From a virus, in the IMG/VR virus record IMGVR_UViG_3300009011_000025, positions 1 to 41,351 of that record: 41,351 nucleotides of DNA, one strand, 5' to 3'. Position numbers and translations under genes: made by a program. The notes under the pieces were generated by a model. That model had not been told where the DNA came from. It saw nothing but the letters and a program-made list of their open reading frames with translations, and did not search any database. Each line of letters opens with the position of its first letter. The first letter of the stretch is position 1. Of the stretch, positions 203-41,351 are shown piece after piece.

Positions 203-1339
203 TCAGAACGCCAATTCGGCGCCCACCTCCAGATACTCGATCTTCTTTTCGTCGTGCCCCTCTTGATAGTGCTTCGTCATCTTCTCGTCCGCATGACCCA
301 TCAAAGCCTGAATGTATTCCTGCGGGAAATTTTGCTGTTCGTACAGCCACGCTCCTAAAGCGCGGATCTCGTGAAAAGTGGGGCGCTCGCCGGCCGGCAC
401 GTGGTCGTAAGCGTGTGCCGCATCCCGGGCCTTGCTGAACTCCTTGGTCAGGTAGTCCGGGGTCACTGACGTCCAGTGGTCCTTGGCGTCGATCTGTTCC
501 CGGCGCCGGGCTTTCGGCTTGTAGTGGATCAGGTACGGCGACACGATCGGCGACCGCAGGCACTCACCGACAACCTCGCGCAGCGCTGCGCCCATGGTGA
601 TCTTCAGGTGAACCGGGTTGTCGTAGCCCTGAGTCTTTCCGGGCGACACCGTCAGCGTGTTCTTATCCATGTCGACAGCCGACTTCAACCAAGTGACGAT
701 GTCGTCTCGGCGCTGAAGGCTGGCCAGTGCCAGGCGGATTGCACGCTTCAGCCAAGGCGGCGTGGTCGCGGCGGCGATGATCATTTTTAGTCCGTCGAGC
801 GTGTGCCGCTGGCGCTTCTTCTCCGCTTCCTTCTTCACGAGCGTCAGTTCGGCGTTGTTGCGCTCAGCCAGACCCTTGGCCACGGCAAAGGCGAAGATCT
901 GAACCCAGAGCCCGCGGTGCTTCGTGTAGGCGTTGTTGCTGAACTGGTCGAGGTATTCGGCCATTGCCAGCACATCCATCTGCCCGATCAGCCGATCACC
1001 CAGGTCCTGCCGGTACCGTTCAAGCTTGAATTTGATTTCCTCCAAGGTACGAACGGCGTAAGTTTTTTCTGGCAGCCATTCCTCTTCGAAGCGTTTCAGA
1101 AGGTTGCTCACGATCGGCAAGCGGTCGCCGGTCAGAAGGGCGAGCAGTGAACCGTCATCGACCACTAGTTCCGCGAATTTCAGGTTGGCGGCCCTGGCCA
1201 ACTTGATTGCCTCCTCCAACGGCCGGTTGATGCTGGTCATCACACCGGTGATGGGGTTGCGGTACCGCCAATACTTCCCGTTCGGGTAAAGGTTTGGCGG
1301 CAACTTCCTGTTTTGAAGCGTGCGCGGCCGGGCAGCCAT
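203..1339 (-). CDS. int: Site-specific tyrosine integrase
   Basis: This 378-residue tyrosine recombinase should insert the phage into tRNA-Val and, with its excisionase, remove it. The N-terminal 60 residues resemble an arm-site DNA-binding domain, followed by a core-binding SAM-like domain. The C-terminal catalytic domain shows Arg210/211 (LQRRDD), the HEIR box (His323, Arg326), His349 (LMGHA) and the nucleophile Tyr358 (KHYQ). Length is usual for phage integrases. The start codon shares one base with the stop of the upstream excisionase-like gene. Its position beside attL makes it the likely agent of this integration. A second recombinase at 16584 is unrelated in sequence. Confidence 0.95.
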   Translation of the reverse strand: MAARPRTLQNRKLPPNLYPNGKYWRYRNPITGVMTSINRPLEEAIKLARAANLKFAELVVDDGSLLALLTGDRLPIVSNLLKRFEEEWLPEKTYAVRTLEEIKFKLERYRQDLGDRLIGQMDVLAMAEYLDQFSNNAYTKHRGLWVQIFAFAVAKGLAERNNAELTLVKKEAEKKRQRHTLDGLKMIIAAATTPPWLKRAIRLALASLQRRDDIVTWLKSAVDMDKNTLTVSPGKTQGYDNPVHLKITMGAALREVVGECLRSPIVSPYLIHYKPKARRREQIDAKDHWTSVTPDYLTKEFSKARDAAHAYDHVPAGERPTFHEIRALGAWLYEQQNFPQEYIQALMGHADEKMTKHYQEGHDEKKIEYLEVGAELAF

Positions 1340-4592: not shown

Positions 4593-5165
4593 TCAATTGT
4601 CCGTGCCTGTGTAGGTGCGCCAAGGAACCTTGACACCGTTGACCAGAAACCCCCAGTCACCACGCCACTTGCTGGTGATGAAGAGGGTGATGACGCCTTC
4701 GTGGAATACCTTGTCGATGCGGTGATACTCGCCGTGCAGCAGCTGCGCGGTGTCGCCCGGTTGGCGGTCGATGTACTCGGTGGCCTGGGCGTTGGCTGGA
4801 ACATTAAGTCCGAACAGCGCAGGGTCTTCGTGATCGAGCAGTCGCTGCTCCGTGTAACAGCCACGCAGGATGATCGTCCTCGCGTTCCATGGGTGGTCAT
4901 GCAGATCCCGGTCTTCGTCCGGCCGCATGATGTGGTGGATGCGGAACGACCACGGGAACCACCAAAGCGCCGGCTTGTGCGTCTCCCGGCTGTAGGGGTT
5001 GAACAGCCACCAGCGACCCATGTACATCTCGGTGCCGTCGGCGGACATGATGTGCAGATACGGGGTTCGCTTGGCGCGGGCGATCAGCCAGTCGGCGATA
5101 GCCGGTTGTGCAAGCAGCTTGGCGACCAGGCGCCAGAAGAGATTGATCATTCCGAAGATCCTCAT
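4593..5165 (-). CDS. Cupin-like phage protein directly downstream of the DGR RT
   Basis: A 190-residue protein starting at MRIFGM, where ATG overlaps the RT stop (ATGA); MINLFW five codons on is an alternative start. After a hydrophobic N-terminal helix comes a probable beta-barrel with HDHPW near residue 105 and GEYHRI near 155, plus Trp-rich strands. This is a cupin-type metal site pattern. The coupling to the RT means it is made with the retroelement, but nothing shows that it takes part in mutagenesis. It may share a fold with 2843-3409. Confidence 0.7.
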   Translation of the reverse strand: MRIFGMINLFWRLVAKLLAQPAIADWLIARAKRTPYLHIMSADGTEMYMGRWWLFNPYSRETHKPALWWFPWSFRIHHIMRPDEDRDLHDHPWNARTIILRGCYTEQRLLDHEDPALFGLNVPANAQATEYIDRQPGDTAQLLHGEYHRIDKVFHEGVITLFITSKWRGDWGFLVNGVKVPWRTYTGTDN

Positions 5166-6322
5166 TTCCTTGGATAGGTTTTTGTCAGTGCGCCATTGAC
5201 TGTGTGGCCGCGCTTCAGGACGACGCGGGCCAGTGCTGCCCGGTCTTTCTCGCTGTGGCTGGCTTGGCTGAGCAAGCCGAAGTAACTGTTTGCGGTTTCG
5301 CGAAGATCCTCGGCGGGCGCCGCGGCTGTTCGCTTCAATGCCTGGGCCATCGATCGCTTCCGGGTTGAACGCCGCCAAGGCTTGATGACGTGGCCAACGA
5401 AGTCGAGACCTCGATCCACTGGTTGTAGGATCGTCTTTGTTGGGTTCAGTTTGGCGCCGAGGCTGGGCAGGAATGCTTCGACCTCTGCCAGCCAGGCGTT
5501 GAGTTGTTGCGGTGACTCATGCAGGAACACGAAGTCATCGACGTAGCGGACGTAATGCTTGGCGCCGAGCTTGTGCTTGGCGAACTGGTCCAGTGCGTCG
5601 AGGTAGACGTTGGCGAAGAACTGCGACGACAGGTTGCCGATCGGCAGTCCGAGGTGCGCAGGTTGGGCGGTTAGGCGTTTGTGCTGCGGCACCCGATTGA
5701 ACAGATGGGCCGGGCTGCGCACCTCGTAGTCTTCTCGAGGGTCGTGCATCAGGATCTGTTCGGCGAGTTCCAGCCACCATGGCTCAGTGATCTTGGCGGC
5801 CAACTGCTTGCGCAGAACCTCTTTGTCGATCGCGACGAAGAAGTTGGCCAGGTCGCACTTGAGGTAGAAGAGCGGCTTCGACCAGTTCTGGCTGGCGCTG
5901 CGGATCTTCGCCTCAAGCCGTGTTGCGGCGTACAACGTGCCGCGCCCGGGAATGCATGCGCAACTGTCCGCTATGAAGCTGGCGTAGAAGCGCGGTGCCA
6001 CACGGTTGTACAGCAGGTGATGAACGACGCGGTCCCGGAAAGCGGCAGCCCAAACCTCGCGGGCTTTCGGTCGAGTGACCACGAAGCATATCGAGCGGCC
6101 TGGCCGGTATGAGCCGGCTATCAGGTCGTCGTGAAGCTTGATCAGGTTGCTCTCCAAGTCCATTTCGAAAGCCAGCGCGCTGGCGCTGTTGCGCTTCGTG
6201 CGGCGGCAGTCGTAATAGGCCTGAACAAGTTCGCTGAACGGGTAGGGACCAACAGTCGAATCTGCGGACGGGGCGGACACGGAGCTCGTTGTTCTTGTCG
6301 TTGTTGTTCTGATTGCCATCAT
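5162..6322 (-). CDS. Diversity-generating retroelement reverse transcriptase
   Basis: A 386-residue reverse transcriptase that should copy the template-repeat RNA into adenine-mutated cDNA. Motif A is CDLANFF (Asp157) and the catalytic box is YVDD (260-263). The motif GLPIGNLSSQ (225-234) has the IGxxxSQ form that marks DGR enzymes, instead of the QGxxxSP of retrons and group II introns. There is no maturase, HNH or protease domain. The ATG-ATG start lies inside the template repeat, read in another frame, and no clear Shine-Dalgarno precedes it. An in-frame GTG at 6280 is the only later candidate before the conserved region. It is coupled to the cupin-like gene downstream. Confidence 0.95.
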   Translation of the reverse strand: MMAIRTTTTRTTSSVSAPSADSTVGPYPFSELVQAYYDCRRTKRNSASALAFEMDLESNLIKLHDDLIAGSYRPGRSICFVVTRPKAREVWAAAFRDRVVHHLLYNRVAPRFYASFIADSCACIPGRGTLYAATRLEAKIRSASQNWSKPLFYLKCDLANFFVAIDKEVLRKQLAAKITEPWWLELAEQILMHDPREDYEVRSPAHLFNRVPQHKRLTAQPAHLGLPIGNLSSQFFANVYLDALDQFAKHKLGAKHYVRYVDDFVFLHESPQQLNAWLAEVEAFLPSLGAKLNPTKTILQPVDRGLDFVGHVIKPWRRSTRKRSMAQALKRTAAAPAEDLRETANSYFGLLSQASHSEKDRAALARVVLKRGHTVNGALTKTYPRK

Positions 6323-6362
6323 CGAAGTTCATGTTGAATGCGTTGTTGGCGGAGCGCTGCGA
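6262..6362 (-). repeat. DGR template repeat (TR)
   Basis: A 101-nt copy of the ends of both target genes. In the target reading frame it has nine AAC codons and one AAT, the usual DGR design, because mutating the adenines of AAC gives many residues but no stop. All 10 differences to VR1 and all 13 to VR2 fall on adenines of this strand. The last 30 nt or so (coding-strand 3' end) are identical in all copies and correspond to the initiation of mutagenic homing region. With VR2 the identity continues 4 nt further, to 6258. The 171 nt between TR and avd (6363-6533) hold no gene I can support and probably form the 5' part of the template RNA. Confidence 0.96.
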
Positions 6363-6533: not shown

Positions 6534-6890
6534 TCAGGTGGCGGGCGCGGTTGGGGTGGAGCGTTTCCAGGCGTTGGCCTGTTTGCCAATCGAGGTGGTG
6601 ACCTCTATTGCATTGGCGTGCTGCGGAACGCTGATGAATCGACTCTCTTTGAAAAGCCGCATCAGGAACTCGATCACCTGGACCTTCTCGACCAGCAAGG
6701 TCAGGTGTGGGCGCTTGTCAGGCGTCGAGTTGGCCCGAGCGATCAACATCAGCACGTCGATGCACTCATCGATGACGCGCTTCCCGAGCGACTGCTTCAG
6801 GTCTCGGGGAATGTTACGAGTGAGGTTCGTGGCCATCTGGAGCAGGCCCAGTGAAACTTTGTAGATCTGCAAATCCGTGTGCATTGCCAT
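6534..6890 (-). CDS. avd: Accessory variability determinant, Avd-type four-helix protein
   Basis: A 118-residue, all-helical, basic protein with the pattern of the bAvd / four-helix-bundle family (related to proteins from 23S rRNA intervening sequences). Helices run at about residues 3-24, 28-52, 60-85 and 95-108. In the Bordetella phage DGR, Avd forms a pentameric barrel that binds the RT and template RNA and is needed for mutagenic homing. The place between target gene and TR/RT is the usual one. The Thr/Pro/Ala tail is probably disordered. Confidence 0.9.
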   Translation of the reverse strand: MAMHTDLQIYKVSLGLLQMATNLTRNIPRDLKQSLGKRVIDECIDVLMLIARANSTPDKRPHLTLLVEKVQVIEFLMRLFKESRFISVPQHANAIEVTTSIGKQANAWKRSTPTAPAT

Positions 6891-6912: not shown

Positions 6913-6930
6913 CCGGCCGCAAGCGGCCGG
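6913..6930 (-). other. Hairpin 3' of VR1
   Basis: A perfect inverted repeat CCGGCCG-CAAG-CGGCCGG (7-bp stem, 4-nt loop) 30 nt beyond the 3' end of VR1, between the stop of target 1 and the avd start. No T-run follows on either strand, so it is not a typical terminator. In the Bordetella phage DGR a hairpin of similar size just after VR is needed for target recognition, so this is a good candidate for the same role. Confidence 0.6.
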
Positions 6931-6944
6931 ATTAAATAAGCGAA

Positions 6945-7565
6945 TTAATCAATCAATTGACTGCGGACGGGGCGGACACGGAGCTCGTTGTGCTTGACGT
7001 CGTTGCCCTGATTGCCATCAGCGAAGTACATGTTGAACGCGTAGTAGGCGGAGCGCTGCGAACTCGACCAGTACCAGGTTGGCTTGAAGGCTTCGGCACC
7101 ACCAGCTTGGAAGGCTTCCAGCGTGGTCTGCACTGGAGATTCCTCGGTGTGCAGCAGGCCGACAGGCTCGCTGTTCGGGTTGTCACCGCTGCGACCGTAC
7201 TGCCAGTTCGCTTCGACGGTCGGTTTGAAGTGGCGGTATTGCAGCTCCTGCACGTCGCGGGCCGGGATCGCCCAGTCAGTGAAGCCGCCGATATCCAAAG
7301 CCAGCACCTGCTGTGCCAACTCGCTACCAGCGGCCGCCATCGCCTCGGTGTTGGCGCGGCTGTTGGTGAAGCTGTCAGCGCCTTCGATCTTCTCGCCGTA
7401 TTCGCCCCAGGCACCGCTCAGTTCGCGCTCGGCGCCGGCGGTGATGTTCAGGTAGCGCTTGCCAGTGTCCGGGTCACGGGTAATGCCGCTGAAGAACCCG
7501 CCGCCGAACGGCTGGCCGATTTCCGGGATGGTCACTGCTGGTGCTGCTTTCTCAACTGCGGACAT
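6945..7565 (-). CDS. DGR target protein 1 (DUF1566-like C-type lectin fold)
   Basis: A 206-residue protein starting at MSAVEK, behind AGAGGAAAG 5-12 nt upstream. The C-terminal 110 residues (DWAIPARDVQEL ... WYWSSSQRSA ... ELRVRPVR) have the look of the DUF1566/FGE-type C-type lectin fold, the scaffold used by most DGR targets. The last 35 residues are encoded by VR1. Variable positions give Tyr-Tyr, Tyr, Ala, Gly, Asp, Val and His where the template has Asn or Asp. There is no signal peptide. The ligand is unknown. It follows target 2 on the same strand and precedes avd. Confidence 0.92.
   Translation of the reverse strand: MSAVEKAAPAVTIPEIGQPFGGGFFSGITRDPDTGKRYLNITAGAERELSGAWGEYGEKIEGADSFTNSRANTEAMAAAGSELAQQVLALDIGGFTDWAIPARDVQELQYRHFKPTVEANWQYGRSGDNPNSEPVGLLHTEESPVQTTLEAFQAGGAEAFKPTWYWSSSQRSAYYAFNMYFADGNQGNDVKHNELRVRPVRSQLID
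6961..7061 (-). repeat. DGR variable repeat 1 (VR1)
   Basis: 101 nt, colinear with TR, no gaps. There are ten mismatches and all are at adenines of the template strand. They alter codons 1, 2, 6, 8, 13, 15, 16 and 18 of the Asn-rich block and include one silent GCA to GCG change. The last 30 nt before the target stop region match TR exactly. Past 7061 VR1 and VR2 still match each other but not TR, which fixes the boundary. Confidence 0.95.
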
Positions 7566-7590
7566 GGTCTTTCCTCTTTTCGAAGGCAAC

Positions 7591-7610
7591 AAAAAAGGCG
7601 CTGCTGCGCC
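7591..7610 (-). terminator. Hairpin with U-tract after target 2 (3' of VR2)
   Basis: On the minus strand GGCGC-AGCA-GCGCC is followed by TTTTTT. It lies between the target 2 stop and the target 1 start, 45 nt beyond VR2. It can act as a partial terminator between the two target genes. It also occupies the place of the post-VR hairpin of the Bordetella DGR, so it may have a second role in homing. Confidence 0.65.
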
Positions 7611-7641
7611 CGGTGCCGATCAAGAACGAATGATTGAAGGA

Positions 7642-8250
7642 TTAAATAAAGAATCTGCGGACGGGGCGGACACGGAGCTCGTTGTCCTTGGCGTAGTCGT
7701 CCTGAAGGCCATCATCGAAGTACATGAAGAATGCGCCGTAGGCGGAGCGCTGCGAACTCGACCAGTACCAGGTGTCCTTCGCGAACAGTTCAGGCACGTT
7801 CACCCAGCAGTGGTACAGCTCTGCGCAGGCGGGCAGATAGAAGTCATTGTGACCATCAGCCTGGTATTCAACGCAGGCGTCTGCGGCTGGATGATCGTCG
7901 CGATCGCCGCCGTGTAGTGCCTTGGTATTAGCGCGGCCATCGGTCTTGCTCGTGGCGCCCGACTCTTTGCCACGACCGCCCCACTCGTGTGTGCCGATGT
8001 CTTCCTTTGCGATGATCAGGTAGTGCGCCGGGACATCGCCACGCGCCGCCACCAGTCCACCGTTGAAGCCGCCTTGGCCTGGCCACTCAGCACCCAGCGC
8101 TGGCACCGAGTAAGCGGTGATCGGTTGAACGTTGGCCGCCGGCGGCAGCACCAAGGCAAACGTGCTGGCCAGTGCGAGCTTGGCCAGCGAAGACGCAGGC
8201 ATCTTGATCGTTGCGTCGCCGTGCTTCAGGGTGATCATTTCGGGTTTCAT
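7642..8250 (-). CDS. DGR target protein 2 (DUF1566-like C-type lectin fold)
   Basis: A 202-residue protein, start MKPEMI behind TGAGGTAA. Residues about 20-40 (SSLAKLALASTFALVLPPAA) are hydrophobic and could be a membrane or signal-like segment, though it begins unusually far in. The remainder is a DUF1566-like domain (GTHEWGGRG, DFYLPACAELYHCW, TWYWSSSQRSA) ending in the VR2-coded ELRVRPVRRF tail. Outside the WYWSSSQRSA-VR block it differs strongly from target 1, so the two are old paralogs fed by one template. No partner or ligand can be named. Confidence 0.92.
   Translation of the reverse strand: MKPEMITLKHGDATIKMPASSLAKLALASTFALVLPPAANVQPITAYSVPALGAEWPGQGGFNGGLVAARGDVPAHYLIIAKEDIGTHEWGGRGKESGATSKTDGRANTKALHGGDRDDHPAADACVEYQADGHNDFYLPACAELYHCWVNVPELFAKDTWYWSSSQRSAYGAFFMYFDDGLQDDYAKDNELRVRPVRRFFI
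7655..7755 (-). repeat. DGR variable repeat 2 (VR2)
   Basis: 101 nt colinear with TR. Thirteen mismatches, all at template adenines, change nine Asn codons and one Asp codon to Tyr, Gly, Phe, Tyr, Leu, Asp, Asp, Tyr, Ala and Asp. No stop codon arises. Identity to TR runs 4 nt further at the 3' end (to 7651) than for VR1. VR2 and VR1 have different substitutions at most shared sites, which points to independent homing events. Confidence 0.95.
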
Positions 8251-12182: not shown

Positions 12183-12824
12183 CTACAAAAACGAGGTGGG
12201 GTACTTCACGTCGACCACGCGGCCGATGATTTCTACCGATTCATCCATTACGAGCATCTGGTAATCCGGATTAAGCGGCTTCAAGTACTCGACTCCAGCA
12301 TCACGCACGTACTGCTTCAAAGTCTTCTCGCCATCGGTCCGAAGCCTTGCAATATAGAACTTACCACTGACCAGATCGAACCCTTCAGGCTTGATCAACA
12401 CTCGCATACCTGGCGTAAAACCATTCCCTTGAACGGGGGTCATGGAGTCACCCTGGACCTCAAGCCAATAGCCGTTCGGCCCAGCATTTACGTCAGATGC
12501 GATCCTTTCGTACGGCTGTCCATTATCGCAAGACTCCGTCCACACACCAGCAGCTACCCAGCTAATCAAAGGATACTCCTTGGCTTCCTTGTAGGGTTGC
12601 GCAACAGATAGCACATTCCCGTGAGCAGGACCAAACAGCAACCATTCAGGTGTGACGCTAAGCGCGCGGGCGAGCTTTTCAAGTGTGGCCTTTCTTGGCG
12701 TACTGCTATCACCGTTCAAAATTCGATGAATCGTTGGCTGGGGCACGCCCGAACGGCGTCCAAGCTCGTTTTCCGATAGATCCTTTTCCAGCATTTTTGT
12801 GCGCAGCCGCACTGCGATCGTCAT
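12183..12824 (-). CDS. cI: CI-type repressor with S24 self-cleavage domain
   Basis: A 213-residue repressor that should hold the prophage silent. An HTH_3 domain spans about residues 5-62 (ENELGRRSGVPQPTIHRIL recognition region). A LexA/CI-type peptidase S24 domain follows: cleavage bond Ala92-Gly93 (VAAGVW), Ser127 in GDSM and Lys170 in TLKQY. The catalytic set is complete, so RecA-stimulated autocleavage on DNA damage is expected. The start MTIAVR is taken because the HTH begins there; only a weak ribosome site is visible. It is divergent from the Cro-like gene, with about 100 nt of operator DNA between. Confidence 0.93.
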   Translation of the reverse strand: MTIAVRLRTKMLEKDLSENELGRRSGVPQPTIHRILNGDSSTPRKATLEKLARALSVTPEWLLFGPAHGNVLSVAQPYKEAKEYPLISWVAAGVWTESCDNGQPYERIASDVNAGPNGYWLEVQGDSMTPVQGNGFTPGMRVLIKPEGFDLVSGKFYIARLRTDGEKTLKQYVRDAGVEYLKPLNPDYQMLVMDESVEIIGRVVDVKYPTSFL

Positions 12825-12861
12825 TTGTTCGACCCGGCGTATTAAAGGAGGTCGAAGTGTA

Positions 12862-12890
12862 TTGCCTGTTGTAATTCGGTTGCGTATTAT
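12862..12890 (+). promoter_or_regulatory. Early rightward promoter PR in the repressor-Cro operator region
   Basis: TTGCCT, 17-nt spacer, TATTAT, on the plus strand, 33 nt before the Cro-like ATG. The -10 sits in the imperfect palindrome TGCGTATTATCGCA, and TTGTAAT / ATTACAA lie as an outer inverted pair at about 12869 and 12897. These are likely CI/Cro operator half-sites. The repressor promoter must face left from the same 99 nt, but I could not pick it out. Confidence 0.65.
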
Positions 12891-12923
12891 CGCAGATATT
12901 ACAAATCGCATTGGTAGGCCCTT

Positions 12924-13115
12924 ATGACCATTACAGAAATGCTGGCCGAGTTGGCGCAGCACGGCTGGAGCCAGGCTCGAATCGCCGAACAATGCAAGAC
13001 GACTCAGCCGACCATTTTCAGAATCACGAAAGGCGGAGGTGCCCGTTACGAAGTGGGTACGGCCATCGTGGCCCTTCATAAGAAGGTTCTGAAGGCCAAA
13101 AAGACCGCTGCGTAA
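12924..13115 (+). CDS. cro: Cro-like HTH protein
   Basis: A 63-residue protein with an HTH (WSQARIAEQCKTTQPTIFRI, about 15-34) and a basic tail (KKVLKAKKTAA). It is the first gene to the right of the divergent repressor, the typical place of Cro, where it would bind the same operators and favour lytic growth. The ribosome site is weak. The gap 13116-13285 holds the hairpin at 13228 and no gene. Confidence 0.85.
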   Translation: MTITEMLAELAQHGWSQARIAEQCKTTQPTIFRITKGGGARYEVGTAIVALHKKVLKAKKTAA

Positions 13116-16282: not shown

Positions 16283-16587
16283 ATCATCAATTCAAGTCTG
16301 GTGATCTGGCAATCATTGTCGGCGCCAACTCGCTGACACAGAATATCGGCAAGCAGTGCCAGCTTCGCGAATTCGTGAAGAGTGGTGACTGCTACGTGGC
16401 GCCGAATGGTGTGGTGTATCGGCACGATGATGTCCCCTGCTGGACGCTTGTCGGTGACGGTCTCGTCGCGGTCGTCGAGGATGAAGTAGTGCAACTTGGC
16501 TTTGGTGTCCACGAGCCGCGCCACCTGATGCCGTTGCGCGACGACTTCGCTCCCACAGGGCAGAAGTCCAAGGCGGTACCAGCATGA
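16279..16587 (+). CDS. 102-residue hypothetical protein, SH3-like
   Basis: Starts MNHQFK, overlapping the nuclease stop. The pattern GDLAIIVGANSLTQNIGKQCQL ... CWTLVGDGL ... HLMPLRDDF suggests a small KOW/SH3-like barrel, known in Pseudomonas phage unknowns that end in MPLRD. It overlaps the recombinase gene start by ATGA, so they are co-expressed. Function unknown. Confidence 0.75.
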   Translation: MNHQFKSGDLAIIVGANSLTQNIGKQCQLREFVKSGDCYVAPNGVVYRHDDVPCWTLVGDGLVAVVEDEVVQLGFGVHEPRHLMPLRDDFAPTGQKSKAVPA

Positions 16588-17864
16588 CCAGCGCCGCAGT
16601 GAAGATCACCGACACCGAAATCAAGCGCCAGGCCGCTGGCACCGTGCGTGACCTGCGAGACATAGAGAACCGTGGCCTATACCTGCGTTTCACCCGCGAT
16701 CGCGCCCGGGCTTCGTGGTACCTGGTGCTTAAGGGGAAATGGAACCTCGTCGGTAGCTTCCCTGAGTTGACGGCAAAGCAAGTCGTTGCAGCGTTGCCCG
16801 GCATTCGCCTGCGCCTCGATGCCGGTGCGGGGTCCAACCTGTCGAAGTGGATCACCACAGGCGAGTTGCTGGACTGGTACGCCGACCGGATGGCCCGCGA
16901 CCGTAGCCTGTCGAGCAAGCGTAAGAAGACCGGCGCCTCCCTGATCAAATGCCACCTCAAGCCGTTGCTGGGTGCTGTGCCGTTGGCGTCGATCAACAAA
17001 GCCACGCTGGACGACAAGTTCATGTGGCCGGCTCAGGAGTCCATCGGCATCGATTACGTGCGTTCCGCGTTCCAGTTGCTGGCTCTGGCCCTCCGTCAGG
17101 CGTTCAAGCTTCGCCTGATCGCGGTCAACCCGATGAAGGACGTCAAGTTCAGCGACTTCTCCAAGGCCAAGGTCGGCGTGAAGCCGTCACGCCTGCGGGT
17201 GACGCAGCTGCAGGACCTGATAGCCCTTCTGCGGGATGCACTGACCAGCGCGCCGGCTGATGCCATGCTCGCCCTGATGATGCTCTGCCACGGCACGCGC
17301 ATCGGCGAGACCCGGCAGGCTCAGTGGTCGCACATCAGCCTGGCCGAGCGGGAGTGGTTCATTCCGGCCGAGCACACCAAGACCGGCGTCGAGCATCACC
17401 TGCCACTGACCGACCAAGTCCGACAGCTGCTGATGACCTATCGCGAAACCCAGTGGGCGAACGGCTACGACGGTCAGTTCCTGTTCCCGGCACGCAACGG
17501 CAAGGCGCTTAGCGAAGGCCAAGCCAGCGCCGTGTTCACCCGACTGGGGCAGGGCGAGTGGACCAGTCATGACCTGCGCAAGGTGGCCCGCACAGGCTGG
17601 GCAGACATCGGTGTCGACCATCTCATCGGTGAGCTGCTGATCAATCACGCCATGGGTCACAACGTGAAGGTGTACATCCAGTCCGACGTGATGAGCCGCA
17701 AGCGTGAGGCGCTGGATCGGTGGTGTGCGTATCTAGATGCGAAGGGATTCAAGCGTATTCACGCGTTGACCGGCTTTAGATCGGGAGATTCTGGTAATGC
17801 CCCGGAAGCCGCAGACGATAAGGCCTGCAAGGCTATTCAAGAAACAACCATAGGCGAGGTTTAA
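16584..17864 (+). CDS. Second tyrosine recombinase, early operon
   Basis: A 426-residue tyrosine recombinase with all catalytic residues: Arg239 (HGTRIGE), Lys266, His329 and Arg332 (HDLR), His355 (INHAMGH) and Tyr364. The N-terminal 110 residues resemble the P4/DUF4102-type arm domain, so it differs in subfamily from the integrase at 203. It is embedded in the early rightward operon, start overlapping the previous gene, and no att-like site adjoins it. It may resolve genome multimers, act on another site, or be a captured integrase; no choice can be made by reading. Confidence 0.92.
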   Translation: MTSAAVKITDTEIKRQAAGTVRDLRDIENRGLYLRFTRDRARASWYLVLKGKWNLVGSFPELTAKQVVAALPGIRLRLDAGAGSNLSKWITTGELLDWYADRMARDRSLSSKRKKTGASLIKCHLKPLLGAVPLASINKATLDDKFMWPAQESIGIDYVRSAFQLLALALRQAFKLRLIAVNPMKDVKFSDFSKAKVGVKPSRLRVTQLQDLIALLRDALTSAPADAMLALMMLCHGTRIGETRQAQWSHISLAEREWFIPAEHTKTGVEHHLPLTDQVRQLLMTYRETQWANGYDGQFLFPARNGKALSEGQASAVFTRLGQGEWTSHDLRKVARTGWADIGVDHLIGELLINHAMGHNVKVYIQSDVMSRKREALDRWCAYLDAKGFKRIHALTGFRSGDSGNAPEAADDKACKAIQETTIGEV

Positions 17865-37683: not shown

Positions 37684-38628
37684 ATGCACAGAATTGATGG
37701 GCCTGGCGCCACGGTTGATAACAAGTTCACTGACGGCGATCCGGTTGGCGGCATTCAGGCAACTCTTGTAACTGATGACTGGCTGAATGATGTCCAAGAA
37801 AACATCATGGCGGTGTTGGTAGCGGCGGCTGTTTCGCCGACGAAAGGGCGTTCGGCTGACTTGGTTGATGCTATTCGTTCGATTTCTCCGGGAGCTGTTG
37901 GCTCAGTTAGAAACGCGAAAATGTCTCTGGTCGCCGCCAGTGCAAGCGCGACATTTACATCTGATCAGGTTGTTGTGGCATCGTCACTTGGCGGTGCCAC
38001 TTACCGACTGAGCAGCTTCAGCAAGATCATCAATCTCGCCACAATCGGCGCTGGCGGTATGGATACCGGTAGCGCACCGCTCTCAGGGTTCGTCGGGCTG
38101 TATGCAATCTATAACCCTTCGAACGGCGCTTCTGCACTACTTGCAGTCAATGCAACAAGCGCGCTGCTGCCGAATGTTTACGGCGGTGCAAGTATGCCGG
38201 CTGGATACACTGCGTCTGCCCTAATAAGCGTATGGGGAACAAATGGGAGCGGTCAGTTTGTAATTGGGCTTCAGGTAGACCGCGAAATCAGCATCGCCAC
38301 AAACACTGTATTCACTACCACCACCGTACAAGCATCGCTGACATCGTTCTCAATTTCCGCAGTGGTTCCAAGAAACGCAGTTACATGCAGGGGTGATTAC
38401 ACCGTTGGATCTTCAGCGGCAAGTGCGGGCGCAAGCGCAGTTCTGTGCGGATCACCTATTGAAATTGGTCGCGTAGCTCAGGGGGGGACAAGTGCTACAG
38501 CCGGTGCAACTATGGTTTCATCTTTCCCGCATCTGCCAATTCTAACTGCGCAAACATTGTATTATCGCGGGTCAGTATCTGCTGGCACATATAACTTCGT
38601 TGTCAGCATTTCTTCTTATGTGTTCTGA
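37684..38628 (+). CDS. Tail fibre protein
   Basis: A 314-residue fibre. The N-terminal 75 residues (IDGPGATVDNKFTDGDPVGGIQATLVTDDWLNDVQENIMAVL) are the typical baseplate-binding end of Pseudomonas phage fibres. The remainder is Ser/Ala/Thr-rich beta shaft and tip without VR-like sequence, so this fibre is not a DGR target. The shaft DNA is A+T-richer than the tail genes, which suggests exchange of the receptor-binding part. Confidence 0.9.
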   Translation: MHRIDGPGATVDNKFTDGDPVGGIQATLVTDDWLNDVQENIMAVLVAAAVSPTKGRSADLVDAIRSISPGAVGSVRNAKMSLVAASASATFTSDQVVVASSLGGATYRLSSFSKIINLATIGAGGMDTGSAPLSGFVGLYAIYNPSNGASALLAVNATSALLPNVYGGASMPAGYTASALISVWGTNGSGQFVIGLQVDREISIATNTVFTTTTVQASLTSFSISAVVPRNAVTCRGDYTVGSSAASAGASAVLCGSPIEIGRVAQGGTSATAGATMVSSFPHLPILTAQTLYYRGSVSAGTYNFVVSISSYVF

Positions 38629-38856: not shown

Positions 38857-39555
38857 TCAAGGAAGCTTATCAATTACTCCGGAAACTATAGGAAATTCCC
38901 TCTCTGCTTTCAGTTGATACATGGTATCAAAAGGATGAACGCAGTCGGAGAGCATGCTCTGCCAGCCCGTCATGTTAATAAGGCTATAGTAGTGCGATAC
39001 GATTGGCACTGATGTTGCTGATGCCACGATATTCATGTGCGCAACATAGTATTGAAGCTTACTCTGGCGCGGCTCCTTGCACACTGGGTTTGGCTCATAT
39101 AGAACCACCTCTTTTCCGTACTTCCGTGCCGTAAAGATAAGCTGCTTTAGTATTTCAGCATATGCTTGCGGAGACTCGGCCAAATTTCCAGCGGTAGGCG
39201 CAGACTGAAAGTATGCGTCATTCAGGCTCATATTGATCGTGACAATCTTGGCAATAGAATCACGCATTTGATCCTCCCATACAGGATGTCGTCCATCCGC
39301 ACCGTATAGCAGTTGGGAGGCCTGTGTTCCGCCAACACCATGGTTGGCAATACGAACTCCGGTCCCGTACTTCTGCTGAAGCATTCGCTCCAGAACCTTC
39401 GTTTCGCTATTCGGCGAAATGACGCTCGCGCCATTTATTACTTGCCATCCCTCGGTCGTTGAATCGCCGTACGCCTCTATGAGCACATCTGTCGCATTGG
39501 CGGAAGCAATTGTGAGAGTAAAGCACGCGGCAACAAACAGTTTCTTGATGAGCAT
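38857..39555 (-). CDS. Secreted SGNH/GDSL hydrolase
   Basis: A 232-residue exported esterase-type protein. A signal peptide (MLIKKLFVAACFTLTIASANA) is followed by Block I GDST (Gly30-Ser32), a Gly in HGVGGTQAS (block II), SLND (Asn112, block III) and DCVH (Asp204, His207, block V). So the SGNH set is complete. AAGGAGG precedes the ATG. It is the only minus-strand gene in the late region and is A+T-richer, so it looks like a moron expressed in the lysogen. A likely job is O-acetyl removal or transfer on surface glycans, which could alter phage receptors; the substrate is not known. Confidence 0.88.
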   Translation of the reverse strand: MLIKKLFVAACFTLTIASANATDVLIEAYGDSTTEGWQVINGASVISPNSETKVLERMLQQKYGTGVRIANHGVGGTQASQLLYGADGRHPVWEDQMRDSIAKIVTINMSLNDAYFQSAPTAGNLAESPQAYAEILKQLIFTARKYGKEVVLYEPNPVCKEPRQSKLQYYVAHMNIVASATSVPIVSHYYSLINMTGWQSMLSDCVHPFDTMYQLKAEREFPIVSGVIDKLP

Positions 39556-41127: not shown

Positions 41128-41228
41128 CGCTAAGTTATTGATTCTTATAGGGCGATGTGGCGGTTTTGCACCATACATAAAACTATACTTTTCTCTTATA
41201 GATCATATGGTTGAATTGGTTTAGGGGT

Positions 41229-41277
41229 CACCTTGACATGGTGGGGGTCGTTGGTTCGAGTCCAATCGCGCCTACCA
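41229..41277 (+). pseudogene. Displaced tRNA-Val 3' fragment
   Basis: The 49 nt from the anticodon arm to CCA, cut off from the D arm and promoter by the prophage. Not functional as a tRNA. Confidence 0.9.
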
Positions 41278-41307
41278 AACAAAATCCGCTCTGCTGGGCG
41301 GTCTAGA
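41229..41307. repeat. attR, 79-nt direct repeat
   Basis: Exact copy of 45-123. It is host-derived here: the displaced 3' part of the original tRNA-Val plus 30 nt beyond. Past 41307 the sequence is host. Confidence 0.95.
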
Positions 41308-41308
41308 A

Positions 41309-41336
41309 GGGCTCACCGAAAGGTGGGCCCTTTTTT
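41309..41336 (+). terminator. Host tRNA-Val terminator
   Basis: Stem GGGCTCACC/GGTGGGCCC with GAAA loop and TTTTTT. This is the original terminator of the host tRNA gene, now 41 kb away from it. Confidence 0.85.
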
Positions 41337-41351
41337 GTTGCTTGCGTTTTG

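Follow-up and report, generated by a model that had tools for sequence, protein, structure and literature searches.

Adenine-restricted variation points to a one-template, two-target diversity-generating retroelement in a Pseudomonas-type temperate phage

The diversity-generating retroelement (DGR) of Bordetella phage BPP-1 (mtd-avd-TR-brt) has one target, whose lectin-like C terminus is diversified in a repeat (VR) that departs from the template repeat (TR) at adenines only. The BPP-1 3' spacer recruits RT-Avd and primes cDNA, an RNA stretch 5' of the TR terminates cDNA synthesis (PMC12875486), and a hairpin or cruciform lies near the VR of BPP-1 targets (PMC3240598). In 2012, the DiGReF survey reported a two-VR DGR in Pseudomonas fluorescens WH6 and described "group 3" DGRs, in which the TR overlaps the 5' end of the reverse transcriptase (RT) frame (PMC3521204). 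Two further phages, SC_8_H2H8_2017 and Cruim01, carry DGRs that are 83% identical in DNA over 95% and 80% identical over 81%, respectively, of the cassette described here, and Cruim01 has an annotated RT-15 RNA. As in the window, by which we mean the whole 41,351-nt stretch of DNA that was analysed, these two DGRs possess two VRs with adenine-only changes; the phage genomes and the VR sequences differ from those of the window.

The window represents a Pseudomonas-type temperate phage or prophage, and the cassette that it carries is almost certainly a DGR with one template and two targets. On the minus strand, where all of its parts lie, the order is target 2 (VR2), target 1 (VR1), avd, RT-15 RNA, TR, and RT, so that target, avd, TR, and RT follow one another as in BPP-1. 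The TR (6262..6362; 101 nt) contains 31 adenines, consists mostly of AAC codons in the VR frame, and was identical in 12 fetched loci. VR1 (6961..7061) and VR2 (7655..7755) sit at the 3' ends of target gene 1 (6945..7562; 205 aa) and target gene 2 (7642..8250; 202 aa), as expected for DGR targets. The accessory variability determinant gene, avd (6534..6890), encodes 118 aa, and the RT gene spans 5162..6322. The locus differs from that of BPP-1 by its second target, by the structured RT-15 RNA 5' of the TR, and by a TR that overlaps the RT start in place of a 3' spacer. Likened by description, WH6 and the DiGReF group 3 elements share with it the genus, the two paralogous targets, and the TR-RT overlap. 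Since two-target Pseudomonas DGRs and the TR-RT overlap were both listed in 2012, the element in the window is of a known type, namely, a common and already described Pseudomonas DGR.

The protein content agrees with this assignment. The best solved relative of the RT (RVT_1; phrog_1423, E 1e-118) was PDB 8ub7 (E 6e-36), which we take to be the BPP-1 bRT complex. Its translation contains IGNLSSQ and YVDD, in keeping with the definition of the DGR RT motif as (I/V/L)GxxxSQ, with YxDD (PMC3521204). We also considered a retron or group II intron identity for the RT and rejected it, since the NCBIfam retron and maturase models scored far below their cut-offs, while the locus has a DGR motif, an Avd, and TR/VR repeats. 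The avd product matched Pfam bAvd above the cut-off and the PHROG family "Avd protein of DGR" at E 3e-30, while its match to NCBIfam DivGenRetAVD fell below the cut-off of that model. Both targets matched phrog_4245 (target 2 at E 3e-33), and they matched Pfam Lcl_C at E 5e-8 for target 1, slightly short of the cut-off, and at E 3e-5 for target 2, below it. When target 1 was modelled with AlphaFold (mean pLDDT 84), the top solved fold was the Legionella Lcl C-terminal domain (8q4e), with C-type lectins as weaker matches; the viral models that matched included a D3 protein and phage proteins of the DUF1566 type. These similarities and, for target 1 only, the model indicate that the targets end in an Lcl_C/C-type-lectin-like domain, as in BPP-1; it contains VR1 in target 1 and, in its paralogous form, VR2 in target 2.

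Aligned to the TR without gaps on the minus strand, VR1 showed 10 differences over 101 nt (4 A>T, 4 A>G, and 2 A>C), and VR2 showed 13 (6 A>T, 5 A>G, and 2 A>C). Each of these 23 differences coincides with a TR adenine, whereas none of the 70 other TR sites is changed in either VR. This exact recount reproduces the original prediction, which had claimed 10 and 13 differences, all at template adenines, and a search for substitutions at G, C, or T in the aligned block found none. A direct comparison of the two VRs gives 13 differing sites, which are likewise all TR adenines. The probability that 23 of 23 differences would hit adenines if sites were drawn at random is about 2.5e-16, a naive figure because both VRs were handled as one draw. 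Seven sites (16, 19, 34, 55, 61, 65, and 70) are altered in both VRs; the same base is found in VR1 and VR2 at sites 16, 34, and 55, and different bases are found at the remaining 4, so that the claim of different substitutions at most shared sites holds but narrowly. It had also been proposed that no stop codon arises because the TR is built of AAC codons. Indeed, neither VR contains an in-frame stop, and in the related loci described below, one was present in 1 of 198 VRs, but the explanation is not complete, as AAG (codon 23), alone among the 33 TR codons, can yield a stop by changes at adenines only. With a TR made of AAC and AAT codons, residues of the lectin-like domain could therefore change almost without stops.

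To place these counts in a wider context, we fetched loci related to the window, 55 from genomes and 80 from viruses, and a TR/VR scan gave 198 VR/TR pairs from ∼100 loci. L056, the sole locus that shares the RT of the window, was excluded from the counts. The pairs showed 2,697 differences at adenines (1,249 A>G, 1,000 A>T, and 448 A>C) versus 76 elsewhere, corresponding to 45% of 6,003 adenine sites and 0.5% of 13,995 other sites. As many as 33 of the 76 exceptions concern the first base of the repeat, and 139 of the 198 pairs have no non-adenine difference at all. Moreover, the 19 VRs of eleven loci with an identical TR, the window included, are all mutually different. We weighed these data against an ordinary tandem gene duplication without any retroelement, in which a transversion bias or selection happened to land on adenines. 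The two target genes are indeed paralogues whose similarity reaches beyond the VR repeat, as a duplication would predict. However, a duplication does not account for the 70 unchanged non-adenine sites, for a third copy, the TR, that lies outside the target genes and adjoins the RT, for the adenine rule in 198 pairs, or for different VRs next to identical TRs. The adenine restriction in the window and its relatives rules this explanation out, and we give it practically no weight. Together, the counts, the adjacent RT with its DGR motif, Avd, and the pairs from related loci agree with the reading of the three repeats as a TR and two adenine-diversified VRs.

Not all TR adenines vary to the same extent. 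Among the 198 VRs, those at TR positions 5, 53, 68, 77, and 100 were nearly never changed, and those at positions 67 and 17 were changed in 4% and 6%, respectively. The rarely changed internal adenines 53, 67, and 68 correspond to window positions 6310, 6296, and 6295, and many of their neighbours change in 50 to 80% of VRs. Selection on scaffold residues (Q of CAG and K of AAG) would fit this pattern, as would protection of sites close to the 3' end.

The scan also revealed loci with unusual repeats. Some contained 3 to 4 VRs (L066, at ∼1586; L115, at ∼1502; L024; L027; and L033), and in several of them the extra targets were ∼3.3 kb or more upstream of the TR. At another locus (L119:4901-5001), the TR was VR-like, with only 19 adenines, and its two VRs were 1 and 4 differences away. 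A mutagenized copy seems to have replaced the original template here, an event that would reduce diversification.

DGR target genes were also found as orphans, in Pseudomonas aeruginosa phages without any RT match. These phages are PA5oct, Ettore, Cassandra, Callisto, 30-3, Deifobo, MIJ3, 30-2, and Paride, and further D3, U7, and FBPa19; the D3 target was recognised by protein and DNA similarity only. The orphan VRs differed from the TR of phage Haboob mostly at adenines, for example, at 15 adenines and 2 other sites in PA5oct and at 17 adenines and 1 other site in FBPa19. By this count, the VR of PA5oct looks fresh. Between PA5oct and Ettore, both flanks are ∼96% identical, and the VRs show 15 adenine and 6 other differences over 101 nt. 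Deifobo, MIJ3, 30-2, and Paride, which are PA5oct-like jumbo phages, have a common frozen but drifting VR with 0 adenine and 0 to 6 other differences. These data suggest that the targets of RT-less jumbo phages were either rewritten in trans by prophage DGRs of this lineage or acquired by recombination with prophage targets; the latter stays a rival to rewriting in trans because the upstream part of PA5oct is mostly 84 to 96% identical to the second target of Haboob.

Different VRs beside identical TRs argue that the element works or worked recently, and judged by its sequence, it looks active. L056 is uninformative in this respect, since its sequence is identical to that of the window over 5 kb, VRs included. 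Being the sole second record of the same virus, it could be cited for a former DGR that is now inactive, with VRs that are the frozen products of earlier rounds. The jumbo-phage orphans, in which VRs persist with no adenine changes and several non-adenine changes among close relatives, provide a precedent for such freezing. In the window, however, RT, Avd, RT-15, and TR all appear intact, and neither VR has a single non-adenine change, compared to 6 to 14 in most jumbo-phage orphan VRs. We thus consider it improbable that the element is defunct.

The interval between avd and the TR holds an RNA that matches Rfam RT-15 (RF03018; 6360..6550, minus strand) over its full length and above the gathering threshold (182 bits versus a gathering score of 82). 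It overlaps the last avd codons and the first 3 nt of the TR. The same model matched directly 5' of the TR in 11 other loci, mostly beta-proteobacterial or metagenomic, and in four Pseudomonas phages, with P. aeruginosa phages represented among these loci. Wherever we saw RT-15 (the window and 15 other DGR loci), it adjoined a DGR template. In Rfam, it is named merely as an RT-associated RNA. We found no mention of RT-15 in the DiGReF survey (PMC3521204) and no description of its placement beside a DGR TR in the literature covered, which did not extend to the original definition of RT-15. In 23 sequences, the 48 predicted pairs of the fold were 96.8% standard, and 20 of them showed compensatory changes on both sides, compared to 10.3 in column shuffles and 4 to 11 with slid partners. 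The intergenic RNA had a pairwise identity of 0.89, compared with 0.71 for third codon positions of RT. The synonymous difference was 0.16 in the avd codons inside RT-15 versus 0.39 to 0.54 in the remaining avd. The RNA between avd and the TR is a conserved, covarying structured element.

On the other side of the template, no BPP-1-type noncoding spacer separates TR and RT, as the RT frame is open into the TR. The in-frame RT ATGs at 6322 and 6319 are both inside the TR, and across the Pseudomonas loci, the only in-frame starts upstream of the conserved RT sequence, which begins ∼18 nt past the TR, also fall within it. We looked for a 3' spacer overlapping the RT gene by means of synonymous constraint and found none, RT codons 1 to 60 showing no extra constraint (0.32 to 0.35 versus 0.24 to 0.49 in the rest of RT); a short spacer is still compatible with these values.

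In retrons, msr precedes msd. By analogy, the RNA responsible for holding and priming the RT in this lineage might lie 5' of the template rather than 3', although we regard this as rather unlikely. Such a retron-like variant would refine the DGR reading rather than replace it: RT-15 would serve as scaffold and primer instead of the BPP-1 3' spacer. The lack of a 3' spacer, with an RT frame that starts in the TR, speaks for it, as do the compensatory changes in RT-15 and the constraint, which shows in RT-15 and its avd codons but not at the start of RT. Conversely, an RNA stretch 5' of the TR also acts in BPP-1 (PMC12875486), and the 5' coding RNA of RT might function as a spacer without strong synonymous constraint. 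On balance, we hold this variant to be a tentative option, with the odds against it.

In the DGR reading as such, an RNA spanning the avd end, the RT-15 fold, and the TR would be bound by RT and Avd, with RT-15 as a putative scaffold. The RT would copy the TR into cDNA, misincorporating opposite adenines, and the cDNA would then take the place of VR1 or VR2, the 3'-terminal repeats of the two target genes. The repeat's invariant 3' portion, GAGCTCCGTGTCCGCCCCGTCCGCAG, would direct this replacement, helped at VR1 by a candidate hairpin or cruciform formed by the GC-rich inverted repeat CCGGCCG-CTTG-CGGCCGG (6914..6931, minus strand; 7-bp stem and 4-nt loop), 30 nt downstream of VR1. A GC-rich hairpin was present after 90 of 97 VR1-type repeats and 0 of 100 TRs; by the same criterion, 7 of 96 VR2 repeats had one, and that of the window VR2 is weak at best. 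The candidate hairpin after VR1 resembles that of BPP-1 target sites, a GC-rich inverted repeat that is absent at the TR and lies nearer to the VR, at 4 nt.

The DGR is located in a leftward operon between the repressor gene (12183-13043) and an integrase gene (203-1339, minus strand), unlike in BPP-1, where the target is with the tail genes. This integrase adjoins a tRNA-Val (17-93) at the att end. Repeats of 136 nt that are 84% identical (32-167, overlapping tRNA-Val, and 41216-41351) occupy both ends of the window and have the look of attL and attR sites bounding a complete prophage. A second integrase gene (16584-17864, plus strand) is found mid-phage, with the replication region on one side and the structural module on the other, and perhaps reflects a second element or a mosaic. 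The structural module runs rightward and includes terminase, tail sheath, and tape measure genes. The tail fibre gene (37684-38628) is far from the DGR and on the opposite strand, beside a GDSL lipase/acylhydrolase gene (38857-39555, minus strand), itself opposite in strand to the tail fibre gene; the tail fibre gene was not among the VR sites located by a repeat search of the window. A similar position, near cI and opposite the replication genes, is taken by the cassette or an orphan target in phages Haboob and D3.

The element in the window mainly confirms the textbook mechanism in a clean case. Diversified targets that reside in a repressor-side operon, away from the tail genes, raise the question of which ligands they may bind. 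The ∼100 sister loci have comparative value, since they provide 198 VR samples, many of them from one identical template. Finally, the conserved RNA 5' of the TR makes it testable whether DGR cDNA is primed in more than one mode.
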